A stretch of DNA of 20,009 nt from the IMG/VR virus record IMGVR_UViG_3300044638_009634, positions 1-20,009 of that record, one strand, 5' to 3'. Position 1 is the stretch's first letter, and each line of letters starts with the position of its first letter. This document shows positions 2,181-15,301 of this stretch, piece by piece. The notes beneath the pieces are model-generated. The model was not told the DNA's origin. It ran no database searches and was given only the letters and a program-made list of their open reading frames with translations. The stretch is from a virus. Position numbers and translations under genes: made by a program.

Positions 2181-2567
2181 ATGATTAAGAGTTTATCGAA
2201 AGTTAAAAAAGTAGTTGCAAGGCCTTCAGTAAAAGTTAATATTAAAGATTACACTGAAGGTAATGAAGATTGTTTTGTTGAATTCAAAGAGCCAAGTGCT
2301 GCATCGATGTTTCCAGATTCGGATATTATTCAAAAACTAAAAATTAAATATCCGTTCTATCCAGACACAATGCTTTATCAAATCATTCTTCTAGGCAAAT
2401 GTTATGTTAACACTGCTGAAGATGGAGATAGTTTTAATGCAACACATAGCATTGGTGATTTAGCTAAAAATAATAAAGATTGTTTTTTCTATCTTTTAAG
2501 TGAGTTTTTAGCTGCTTTCCCAACTGCTGACATTGAAACTAGGATTCCAGAAGCAAAAAACGACTAA
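2181..2567 (+). CDS. Tail assembly chaperone, zero-frame product (gpG-like)
   Basis: This 128-residue protein lies between the tube protein and the tape measure, the standard place of the siphovirus tail assembly chaperone (lambda gpG equivalent), which coats the tape measure during tail assembly and is absent from the virion. It contains a predicted helical core (for example SDIIQKLKIKYPFYPDTMLYQIILLGKCYV and NNKDCFFYLLSEFLAAF). Shine-Dalgarno AAAGGA (2170-2175) sits 5 nt before the ATG. The gene ends only two codons after a canonical slippery heptamer, so a fraction of ribosomes should make the extended product listed separately. No sequence family is recognised with certainty; the call rests on position plus the frameshift signal. 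Confidence 0.8.
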   Translation: MIKSLSKVKKVVARPSVKVNIKDYTEGNEDCFVEFKEPSAASMFPDSDIIQKLKIKYPFYPDTMLYQIILLGKCYVNTAEDGDSFNATHSIGDLAKNNKDCFFYLLSEFLAAFPTADIETRIPEAKND

Positions 2568-2746
2568 TCGGATGTTCTGGACAAATACTTTATTACTGCT
2601 TGAAGTATTTGAAAAGGCATCCGACAGAACTAGATTTAACTCTTGACCAAATGGCAGAAATTGCGTATGTGGCAAAAGAAATCGAGAAAGCAGAGGCTGA
2701 AAATGCCTCTGCAATCTTGAAAGCATTACTTGGAAGTAGATTTTAA
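2181..2746 (+). CDS. Tail assembly chaperone, -1 frameshift product (gpGT-like fusion)
   Basis: In the -1 frame, an open frame without its own start codon runs from the slippery site to a TAA at 2744-2746, immediately before the tape-measure ATG at 2747. Slipping at A AAA AAC (2555-2561) joins residues 1-127 of the chaperone to 61 new residues (beginning RLIGCSGQILYY and ending ALLGSRF), a 188-residue product. The extension is helical and charged, with segments such as TLDQMAEIAYVAKEIEKAEAENA. This matches the gpG/gpGT arrangement conserved in long-tailed phages, where the T extension recruits the tube protein while G coats the tape measure. The coordinates span both frames; the C-terminal part is read in frame 2561-2746. 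Confidence 0.8.
2555..2630 (+). promoter_or_regulatory. Programmed -1 ribosomal frameshift signal (slippery site plus downstream structure)
   Basis: The heptamer AAAAAAC at 2555-2561 is in the X XXY YYZ register (codons AAA AAC). Six nt downstream a perfect 7-bp stem forms between 2568-2574 and 2618-2624. It encloses an 8-bp hairpin (2583-2590 with 2603-2610). A further 6-nt complementarity (2574-2579 with 2625-2630) crosses the first stem and could form a pseudoknot or an alternative fold. Confidence 0.8.
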
Positions 2747-4492
2747 ATGGCAACTTTAGCAACTGTTCAAATACAATTTAAAAGCGTTGGTGGAAACCAA
2801 GTTAAAAAGGATACCAATGATATCTTAAACCTGATGAAAGGCTTAGGTGCTCAAATTGGTGTTGCTACTTCTTTGGCTGAGTTATTTACTCACGCTATTA
2901 TTGGTGCAGCTAAAGGAATTGCGCAGTTAACAGTTGCTGCATTTGAAAACTACAAATCTTTCGAAACTAATATCTCTGCTTTAGCAATGTATCAAACAAC
3001 TCTTGTTGGTACTTCTAATCAACTTCAAAGATTAAGAACATTATCATTAGAACCTGGTCTTTCTTTAGACCAAGTTTTAAAAGGTGTTACTTATCTTGAA
3101 GCAGCAGGTTTTTCAGCAAAAGTATCAGAAAGAGCTATAAAAGAATTTGGTAATGCACTAGCTTTAGCAGGAAAAGGTTCTGAAGACTTAGCAGGTGTTC
3201 AGTTAGCATTAGGTCAGATAAAAAGTAAGGGCATTATTTCTGCTGAAGAAATCAATCAAATTGCAGAGCGTGTTCCTCAAGTAAGAGCTGCTATTGTTAA
3301 AGCATTTGGAACTGGTAATACAAAAGCATTACAAGAAATGCAAATTCCAGCCACAGAGTTTATTACCAAAGTTACTGACCAATTAGCAAAGTTACAAAGA
3401 GCACCAAGAACCATTGCAAGTACTCTTAAAAATGTAACTGATTCATTTAAATACGCAAATATTATTATTGGAAAAGGTTTTAATGACATAATAAATGCAT
3501 CAGCAGGTTTTAATAACTTTAAACTATTCTTTGAAAACTTAAAACAGATATCAATGGAAATTTCAGGCATTTTATCTGGTTTTGCAAAGACAGAAGCTTT
3601 TAAAGAGATTCAAAGACAAATCCACGATACTTTAACTATTTTTCATTCTTTAATTCCAGGAATGGCTAGAAGTTTTGCTATTGGATTAGCATTTGTAACA
3701 TCATTTTCTATCGACTTAATGAAGATAGGAAACAGTATGTACAATTTTTTTGGACAACTATTTCACGAGCCAACAAAACTTTGGGAAAAAGAACTTAAAG
3801 CATTTTTAGATTTCTTTAACTTTGCATTTGTTGATGGTTTTCGAGTATTTTTTATTGAAATAGAGCTGGGTTTTACTAAGCTTAAAAGACTAGCTACTCT
3901 TCCAGGTACTCAAGCAAATAGGGAAGCTTCTAATAGAGTTGTTGAACTAGAGTTTCAAAAGAAGTTTATCAATAGAAGAATTGATGATGCTTTAGCTGGA
4001 AGAAGAGAAGGTCAACAAGGTTCTCCATTATATAAGATGCTTCAAAGAACAGCTGAAGGTCTTCAAGGTATGCTTCCTAGTATGACTGGAGACCAAAATA
4101 ATATCGTTTCAAAAGCATTAAATATTTATGACGATATTATGAAAAATGCTGGTTTTAACACTGTTTTACCAAGTGGATTAAAGCCTGGTGGAATGGGTCC
4201 AGTAACAGATACTATTGACAAAGGCAATGAAAAGAATGGTAAAAAGCTTGATTTGATTGTTCAGTCAACTCAAAAACAAGTTGAGCTTACACTTAGAAAC
4301 CTTACTTATGGTGGTGGAGAACTAGCCGCTCAAGGTTTATCTACTGTTCAAATGCAAAACTCTAAAACATATGGAAGAGCAACATCATCACCTGTTATTA
4401 ATGCTACAAATGATATAACTCGTGGTGTGGAAAAGATTGTTAGAGGCTATTCTGGTTCAAATAACTTAAACTTTAACTTTCGGAGGTCATAA
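2747..4492 (+). CDS. Tail tape-measure protein
   Basis: The 581-residue product is the ruler that sets tail length and is extruded through the tube at infection. Residues about 72-185 match the tape-measure N-terminal domain (TIGR02675-like): NQLQRLRTLSLEPGLSLDQV, then LALGQIKSKGIISAEEINQIAERVP, a well-known signature. Hydrophobic stretches at about 41-65 and near residues 305-325 fit the membrane-interacting segments seen in these proteins; the rest is largely helical. By the usual 0.15 nm per residue rule the tail would be roughly 85-90 nm, an inference. It begins right after the stop of the frameshifted chaperone, with a GGAAG 10 nt upstream, and its stop overlaps the next start in TAATG. 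Confidence 0.9.
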   Translation: MATLATVQIQFKSVGGNQVKKDTNDILNLMKGLGAQIGVATSLAELFTHAIIGAAKGIAQLTVAAFENYKSFETNISALAMYQTTLVGTSNQLQRLRTLSLEPGLSLDQVLKGVTYLEAAGFSAKVSERAIKEFGNALALAGKGSEDLAGVQLALGQIKSKGIISAEEINQIAERVPQVRAAIVKAFGTGNTKALQEMQIPATEFITKVTDQLAKLQRAPRTIASTLKNVTDSFKYANIIIGKGFNDIINASAGFNNFKLFFENLKQISMEISGILSGFAKTEAFKEIQRQIHDTLTIFHSLIPGMARSFAIGLAFVTSFSIDLMKIGNSMYNFFGQLFHEPTKLWEKELKAFLDFFNFAFVDGFRVFFIEIELGFTKLKRLATLPGTQANREASNRVVELEFQKKFINRRIDDALAGRREGQQGSPLYKMLQRTAEGLQGMLPSMTGDQNNIVSKALNIYDDIMKNAGFNTVLPSGLKPGGMGPVTDTIDKGNEKNGKKLDLIVQSTQKQVELTLRNLTYGGGELAAQGLSTVQMQNSKTYGRATSSPVINATNDITRGVEKIVRGYSGSNNLNFNFRRS

Positions 4493-14091: not shown

Positions 14092-14132
14092 AGCGGTTAT
14101 GCGGTTCTGCTTATATAGTAATACCGCAGAAC
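14092..14132 (+). repeat. GCGGTT direct/inverted repeats with alternative stems
   Basis: Two direct copies at 8-nt spacing (AGCGGTT 14092-14098 and TGCGGTT 14100-14106) face an inverted copy (ACCGCA, 14123-14128). The overlapping pair GTTCTGC (14104-14110) and GCAGAAC (14126-14132) makes a competing 7-bp stem. This could be iteron-like protein binding sites or a switchable RNA fold. Confidence 0.55.
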
Positions 14133-14149
14133 TAATTCTCTTCTATAAT

Positions 14150-14168
14150 TGGCCAGAGACTCTGGCCA
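14150..14168. promoter_or_regulatory. 19-bp perfect palindrome, operator-like
   Basis: TGGCCAGAG, one central A, then CTCTGGCCA form a perfect 9-1-9 dyad. A one-base spacer suits a dimeric DNA-binding protein better than a hairpin. It lies just right of a TATAAT (14144-14149), so it would overlap a transcript start if that box is used, though no good -35 is seen. Confidence 0.6.
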
Positions 14169-14190
14169 TATGTTATTAGGATAAGAAAAG

Positions 14191-14208
14191 CAAAACCTAA
14201 AGGTTTTG
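14191..14208. repeat. 8-bp inverted repeat
   Basis: CAAAACCT (14191-14198) and AGGTTTTG (14201-14208) are separated by two A residues. It may be a DNA-binding site or a small hairpin with a tetraloop. Confidence 0.5.
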
Positions 14209-14219
14209 AAGCGTTACCA

Positions 14220-14252
14220 ATGACCAGTACTTCTTAAAATCGTACTGGTCAT
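14220..14252. repeat. 11-bp perfect stem-loop
   Basis: ATGACCAGTAC (14220-14230) pairs perfectly with GTACTGGTCAT (14242-14252) around an 11-nt AT-rich loop. It is not followed by a T run, so it is not a typical terminator. Confidence 0.65.
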
Positions 14253-14352: not shown

Positions 14353-14565
14353 ATGCAAAAACAAGATATGCTAATAACCAGTTTAACACAAGTAGAACTA
14401 GCAGATAAGTTAGGTGTTTCTCAACCGTTGATAAGTAAGTGGATGAGTGGAAAATGTATGCCTAGAGTTAAAACCATTAGGAAAATAGCTCAAGCAACAG
14501 GATGTACTGAAGAAGAGTTACTAATGTACTTGTATGCAAAAAATAAAGAACTGGCGAGACTTTAA
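14353..14565 (+). CDS. XRE-family helix-turn-helix regulator
   Basis: This 70-residue protein is almost entirely a lambda-repressor-like HTH domain. The positioning helix is TQVELADKLG (residues 12-21) and the recognition helix is SQPLISKWMSG (23-33), followed by MPRVKTIRKIAQATGCTEEELL, the usual third and fourth helices. It is too short to carry a dimerisation or peptidase domain, as in Cro-like or small excise-type regulators. It is preceded by an extended -10 promoter and a group of palindromes that are candidate operators, and its end overlaps the sigma-factor gene by 32 nt, which suggests coupled translation. An autoregulator of the sigma operon is a reasonable guess. The N-terminal longer form is rejected because of the promoter position. 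Confidence 0.85.
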   Translation: MQKQDMLITSLTQVELADKLGVSQPLISKWMSGKCMPRVKTIRKIAQATGCTEEELLMYLYAKNKELARL

Positions 14566-15301
14566 CTGGTCTAGAAATAACAAAAATGGAAACCTCTCTT
14601 TTGAAGAAGAGGTTTTCTTGTGTTATGAAGTTAACAATGGCAATAGAGAAAAAGCATTAAACATTCTCATTGACCAAAACATTAATATGGTGCATAAGAT
14701 ATCCAAAAAATACTTATGGTGTAATATTCTTTACGAAGACTTATTACAATATGGAGTTGAAGGACTAATATCTGCTGCTCAAAACTTTGTTCCTGAAAAA
14801 GGTTACAAATACAATACTCTTGCTGGTCATTATGTTTTAGGTCGCATAAGAAGAGCTATTGAACAACACAATAGAATTATAAAAGTACCTGCTCACGTTA
14901 ACTTAGCCACATTAAAACTACTTGATATTGAAACTGAAAAGGAAGTAACAGATGAAATGCTACTTCCAATGGTTAACAAGAGAACCACACTTAATACTCT
15001 CAAATCAGCAGTGGAAGTTAAAAATACTCAAATATTAGAGATTGATTCTATTTTCCAAATAAGTGATGCTAAACTGGAAATAGATGAAAAAAAGATAGCA
15101 ATAGAACAAATATTACAAACCTTAAGACCAATCGAAATCACTTGCATTAAACTCAAATTTGGTCTTGATAATAATCTCTCTCTCACATACAAAGAAATAG
15201 ACAAAATAGTTAGTGCTGATTCTGAAGGTCTAATCAACAGGGCTATGATAAAACTTAGGAATATCGAGGGAATAGAGGAATTCCTAAGATATTTAAAGTA
15301 A
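14534..15301 (+). CDS. Phage-encoded sigma70-family RNA polymerase sigma factor
   Basis: The 255-residue product would redirect host RNA polymerase to phage promoters. Region 2 spans about residues 41-122: NMVHKISKKY, then EDLLQYGVEGLISAAQNF, PEKGYKYNTLAGHYVLGRIRRAIEQHN and IIKVPAHV, closely following the RpoD pattern ([28 protein letters not shown]...IRLPVH). Region 4 is about 188-250: EQILQTLRPIEITCIKLKFGL, then LTYKEIDKIVSADSEGLINRAMIKLR in place of the usual TLEEIG...RERIRQIEAKALRKLR. Region 1.1 is absent and region 3 is short. The start at 14534 overlaps the XRE gene by 32 nt and has no clear Shine-Dalgarno; a TAA at 14522 limits any upstream start. It is likely the regulator of late transcription, but its target promoter is unknown. 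Confidence 0.88.
   Translation: MQKIKNWRDFNWSRNNKNGNLSFEEEVFLCYEVNNGNREKALNILIDQNINMVHKISKKYLWCNILYEDLLQYGVEGLISAAQNFVPEKGYKYNTLAGHYVLGRIRRAIEQHNRIIKVPAHVNLATLKLLDIETEKEVTDEMLLPMVNKRTTLNTLKSAVEVKNTQILEIDSIFQISDAKLEIDEKKIAIEQILQTLRPIEITCIKLKFGLDNNLSLTYKEIDKIVSADSEGLINRAMIKLRNIEGIEEFLRYLK

Follow-up and report, generated by a model that had tools for sequence, protein, structure and literature searches.

G/GT frameshifting is widespread, and in phage lambda it takes place at G_GGA_AAG, a site without a known stimulatory structure. In lambda and other long-tailed phages, the genes are ordered tail tube, G, T, and tape measure, and a -1 shift close to the end of G leads into T, which lies in the -1 frame (PMC5009743). 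Among the bacterial systems covered in the relevant parts of that source, the stimulators are stem-loops (dnaX), elaborate stem-loops (IS911), or pseudoknots. In E. coli dnaX, an A-rich heptamer (A_AAA_AAG) is followed by a stem-loop with an 11-bp stem, and a Shine-Dalgarno-like element lies 10 nt upstream. The g-t genes of Haloarcula virus HCTV-2, an archaeal virus, use A_AAA_AAC, and the account of them in the same source mentions no structure. IS3411-type apical-loop/internal-loop stimulators and pseudoknots begin with a stem-loop just past the site, and in IS elements a second stem-loop lies 44–104 nt downstream (PMC5009743). In E. coli, A_AAA_AAC is poor compared with A_AAA_AAG (PMC5009743), a point against the reading given below. 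For two phage chaperone genes, frameshifting of 6–7% has been given (PMC3711429).

The locus that we describe lies in a stretch of 20,009 bases (the window), which is the entire virus record IMGVR_UViG_3300044638_009634. It shares the lambda gene order, with a -1 frame that is entered close to the end of G. Where lambda has G_GGA_AAG and no known structure, this locus has A_AAA_AAC, as in HCTV-2, and a covarying stem-loop (H1). As in dnaX, the A-rich heptamer is followed by a stem-loop, here after a conserved 6-nt spacer, and there may be a Shine-Dalgarno-like element 10 nt upstream (weak here); H1 is longer than the dnaX stem and, unlike it, is interrupted. As in the IS3411-type systems, the stem-loop is just past the site, but the H1 loop has no conserved complementarity to downstream sequence. 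The genes and the slippery site are as follows.

1728–2168, + strand: gene for a tail tube (major tail) protein, directly upstream of G, predicted from an AlphaFold model
2181–2567, + strand: G, tail assembly chaperone, zero-frame product of 128 amino acids (open reading frame with a weak fold match)
2555–2561, + strand: slippery heptamer A_AAA_AAC, in exact register with G
2558–2746, + strand: T, a conserved protein sequence that extends G in the -1 frame by 61 codons past the slip
2747–4492, + strand: gene for the tape measure protein (Pfam PF20155 TMP_3 and PHROG tape measure families)

We consider it highly probable (about 0.9) that the tail assembly chaperone of this siphophage is made with a programmed -1 ribosomal frameshift of the G/GT type, with the H1 hairpin at the site. 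The slippage, its stimulation by H1, its efficiency, and the roles of the proteins are what we infer for it. Most ribosomes would end G at the TAA at 2565–2567, and a minority, stalled by H1 6 nt past A_AAA_AAC, would slip by -1 and continue into T, producing the fusion GT. The analogy with lambda suggests that G coats the tape measure protein and that GT also recruits the tail tube protein.

At the downstream end of the gene order, the 581-amino-acid tape measure protein matches PF20155 (TMP_3) with 57.3 bits against a cut-off of 41. Directly upstream of G, the AlphaFold model of the encoded protein (pLDDT 69) matches tail tube proteins, including lambda gpV and those of phages 812 and 80alpha (best E 1.2e-4), which suggests that this gene is tail tube-like. 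The model of G (pLDDT 87.6) weakly resembles the HK97 tail assembly chaperone: 2ob9 is the top Foldseek match in the PDB (E 0.3, probability 0.80, a weak match), and the two highest rows of a structural alignment are 3klu YqbN (Z 6.0) and 2ob9_A (Z 5.4), both weak scores. Neither G nor T matched a PHROG or Pfam family. Two overlapping open reading frames thus lie between the tail tube and tape measure genes.

The 3' end of G reads AAA AAC GAC TAA. After a -1 slip, the ribosome would read KRLIGCSGQILYYCLKYLKRHP..., and this frame continues for 61 codons beyond the AAA at 2558–2560 before it closes at the TAA at 2744–2746; the tape measure ATG is next, at 2747. A preliminary description of this DNA, made from the sequence alone, had placed A AAA AAC in perfect register two codons from the zero-frame stop, with a -1 frame open for 61 codons up to the tape measure gene, and both statements are confirmed.

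To find relatives, we used several searches. G alone as a query returned 1 locus, and an alignment of G returned 20 loci; the slippery site was not used in the G search. A DNA pattern made of the site and the outer arm of H1 identified 14 contigs, all with G and T. A search with T returned 63 loci (one of its two peptide patterns overlaps the slippery site), and the G-alignment and T searches combined amount to 64 contigs. In total we have 84 loci, i.e., the window and L019–L101, with some contigs counted twice. Once identical sequences were dropped, 60 remained: 21 close ones (group 1, which includes the window), 2 intermediate ones (L058 and L059), and 37 in a distant group (L062–L101). Searching 50,697 phage records with tblastn, using G, the tape measure protein, the tail tube protein, and the G and T of a distant relative, gave no match. 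We propose no host because searches of genome contigs with the tape measure protein or G were also empty.

The site and the frame are conserved. AAAAAAC with a T-like -1 frame is present in 83 of the 84 loci, and the remaining locus (L036) has A_AAA_AAA; the preliminary description had named a lack of such conservation as grounds for dropping its gpG/gpGT reading. Among the loci found through G, all 20 have a slippery run of A in register and a T-like frame (19 with A_AAA_AAC and 1 with A_AAA_AAA). A 144–148 amino acid open reading frame precedes G in all 60 distinct sequences. Purifying selection acts on the -1 frame of T, with a pN/pS of 0.30 for codons 23–57 (210 pairs). Overall, the conserved site, frame, and gene order strongly support the gpG/gpGT reading.

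Three further features lie around the heptamer.

2541–2544, + strand: AGGA, a weak candidate for a Shine-Dalgarno-like element 10 nt ahead of the slippery site (GG conservation and codon bias)
2568–2624, + strand: H1, a nested stem-loop (outer stem 2568–2574:2618–2624, inner stem 2582–2590:2603–2611) after a spacer at 2562–2567
2574–2630, + strand: crossing match 2574–2579:2625–2630, judged to be a chance match

In the window, the 79 nt past the heptamer fold at -23.9 kcal/mol, with a z-score of -5.84 relative to dinucleotide shuffles, and the H1 fold has a z-score of -4.16 relative to randomisation that preserves the amino acids. Among 3987 segments of 75 nt, the H1 fold takes rank 18 by stability, so it is not the window's most stable fold. 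With the same amino-acid-preserving randomisation, the 21 close sequences have a mean z-score of -3.26, with p ≤ 0.01 in 16 and p ≤ 0.05 in 18; the exceptions with p > 0.05 are L025, L034, and L035. Low fold z-scores also occur within G (down to -2.09, or -3.47 with another codon table), and a scan of G in the close group found no conserved helix there, so only covariation at the level of helices is specific. (An 8-bp match noticed by eye inside G, in the window and in the relative nearest to it, was not general across the alignment.) An Rfam search of the window and of eight loci gave no match.

The 7-bp outer stem, which the preliminary description had correctly placed 6 nt downstream of the site, is complete, with 7 pairs, in every one of the 21 close sequences. 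In L036, a C-G pair became A-U (one compensatory change) and an A-U pair became G-U, and the stem was retained; L036 is the only variant among 20 distinct rows (C-G 19 and A-U 1 at one pair, A-U 19 and G-U 1 at the other). The near-invariance of the outer stem leaves it with a modest permutation result, as 83 of 2000 permutations reach the observed value. For the inner stem, 169 of 189 cells are paired, against a maximum of 168 among permutations that preserve the codons, and none of 2000 reaches the observed value; the exchanges are A-U/G-C and C-G/U-A. The check for covariation in relatives that had been suggested at the outset comes out in favor of the inner stem and, modestly, of the outer one. 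The enclosed hairpin that had been noted is present, but with 9 bp (11 bp in the MFE fold) rather than 8, and both stems had been seen without noticing that they form one nested hairpin.

A change of reading frame could also arise if RNA polymerase slipped on the run of A, so that a GT message would be produced by transcription rather than by the ribosome. The homopolymer of 6 A at the site (7 in L036) invites this explanation. Six A is a short run for transcriptional slippage, and polymerase slippage would leave unexplained both the register of the heptamer and the conserved hairpin at a ribosomal spacing. We therefore view a transcriptional origin of GT as very unlikely.

It is also conceivable that the heptamer suffices for the shift and that H1 serves message stability or termination after G. 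The lambda shift is not known to need more than its heptamer, the link from H1 to the shift is one that we infer, and another hairpin in the same segment (H2, below) is conserved as well. The relatives argue for a role at the site. In L058 and L059, the outer stem is replaced by another helix of 8 bp (GUGUAGGU:ACCUACAC), and the 6-nt spacing is identical despite the different helix sequence. The distant group, with the same heptamer, has a shorter stem of its own that begins about 8 nt past it (2570–2575:2594–2599 in window numbering) and is present in 37 of 37 sequences with 222 of 222 core cells paired; one pair is U-A in 31 and A-U in 6. (The nested fold of this group is barely above randomised coding sequence, with a mean z-score of -1.24 and p ≤ 0.01 in 2 of 37.) Furthermore, a scan for terminator patterns in the window listed neither H1 nor H2. 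An unrelated role for H1 is thus improbable, and we continue with H1 as the likely stimulator of a ribosomal shift.

The preliminary description had proposed that a 6-nt complementarity crosses the first stem, as a possible pseudoknot or as an alternative to that stem. Six Watson-Crick pairs are indeed present in the window, and L025, L028, and L031 also have all six (wobble allowed), which is what a stimulatory pseudoknot (H-type or related) or a two-state switch would need. The helix is complete in just these 4 of 21 close sequences, however, and the nearest relative of the window (L038) has 3 of 6 pairs. It behaves as the controls do: 90 of 126 cells are paired, against a permutation mean of 88.2 (526 of 2000 permutations reach the observed value), its covariation score is reached by 194 of 500 shuffles, and in 35% of shuffles the H1 loop finds a 6-bp Watson-Crick match somewhere in the 40 nt of 3' flank. 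G2574 is also used by the outer stem, and forcing the crossing pairing gives -17.4 instead of -23.9 kcal/mol, a cost of 6.5 kcal/mol. The geometry, with arms that have no linkers, implies that a coaxial H-type fold would not be plausible, and the doubt expressed earlier about a strained fold was correct. The two pairings do not look like alternatives either, as only the outer stem is conserved. The core pairs of the crossing helix probably persist through their location in conserved T codons. Overall, the crossing helix has no detectable part in the frameshift, and a pseudoknot or switch built on it is most improbable.

A broader search for pairing between the H1 loop and 2625–2731 found no 5-bp helix in at least 60% of the 21 close sequences, which also speaks against a pseudoknot and against IS3411-type kissing of the H1 apical loop with a downstream hairpin. 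Among helices of 4 bp, three placements from the apical loop and one from the 5' internal loop have all their pairs in 13–15 of 21, near the permutation means. In the distant group, an H-type pairing GGUUG:CAACC is possible in 30 of 37 sequences, whose variation is too small for a covariation test.

Upstream of the heptamer, a GG at -12 or -13 is widely retained among relatives. Where close relatives have Lys at -14, the codon is AAG in 11 of 11 (background for G, 84 of 249), and where distant relatives have Arg at that place, the codon ends in GG in 32 of 32 (background, 77 of 280), in both cases among related sequences. The duplex energy with the anti-Shine-Dalgarno sequence is significant in 1 of 21 close and 0 of 37 distant sequences. 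The GG near -12 is thus a possible, weak candidate for a Shine-Dalgarno stimulator.

The preliminary description had the frameshift site right and overlooked a second conserved hairpin downstream of it.

2690–2712, + strand: H2, hairpin 2690–2697:2705–2712 inside T, identified by covariation, with its end 34 nt ahead of the tape measure ATG

In an unguided scan of T in the close group, H2 was the top of 12,720 six-pair placements, ahead of both H1 stems. Its 168 cells include 156 that are paired, against a permutation mean of 141.7 and a maximum of 151 (0 of 2000 permutations reach the observed value), and one pair takes five forms (G-C 9, A-U 5, U-A 4, C-G 1, G-U 1). All 8 pairs are present in 15 of 21 sequences, with 7 in L019, L030, and L032, 6 in L041, 5 in L036, and 4 in L023; H2 is absent from L058 and L059. 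In each of the 21 close sequences, its 3' end lies 30–35 nt from the tape measure AUG; the Shine-Dalgarno region there is about half unpaired. Our guess is that H2 acts on tape measure expression or on message stability, in a stretch that would be crossed by few ribosomes. It is possible, though doubtful, that H1 sets the ratio of G to GT and that H2 tunes tape measure synthesis or shields T, a segment that would go nearly untranslated. If both hairpins do act in this way, the stoichiometry of three tail assembly proteins would be set within a single stretch of about 200 nt.

Frameshifting at such a locus and its stimulation by a stem-loop are both known in kind; what is new here is the covariation record and H2. 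In the parts of the literature that we consulted, we found no hairpin before the tape measure gene and no stimulatory structure for G/GT, which does not prove their absence. The covariation lies inside a protein-coding frame, where the downstream stem-loop outlasts sequence change, with a different outer helix in the intermediate relatives L058 and L059. The roughly 60 natural variants could show how stem strength tunes the chaperone ratio of phages on A_AAA_AAC, a heptamer that is weak in E. coli, and H2 offers a new lead ahead of the tape measure gene.

The distant group has other hairpins in these genes. Within its T, a hairpin of the AUAGCC GAGG UGGCUAU type (2651–2657:2661–2667 in window numbering), 96–112 nt from the start of the heptamer, was first of 7,260 placements and 8.5 standard deviations above codon permutation. 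About 37–69 nt into its G lies another covarying hairpin, 5.1 standard deviations above permutation, with one pair that is C-G in 19 and G-C in 14 sequences; the close group has no counterpart of this early-G hairpin.

Elsewhere in the window, the non-coding stretch at 14095–14250 contains consecutive palindromes and is among the strongest local folds (z-score -4.36); it separates a small open reading frame from a gene for an AAA_25 ATPase and may serve in control or as an origin. A gene for a sigma-70-like factor (Pfam Sigma70_r2, PHROG 351) is at 14534–15301.
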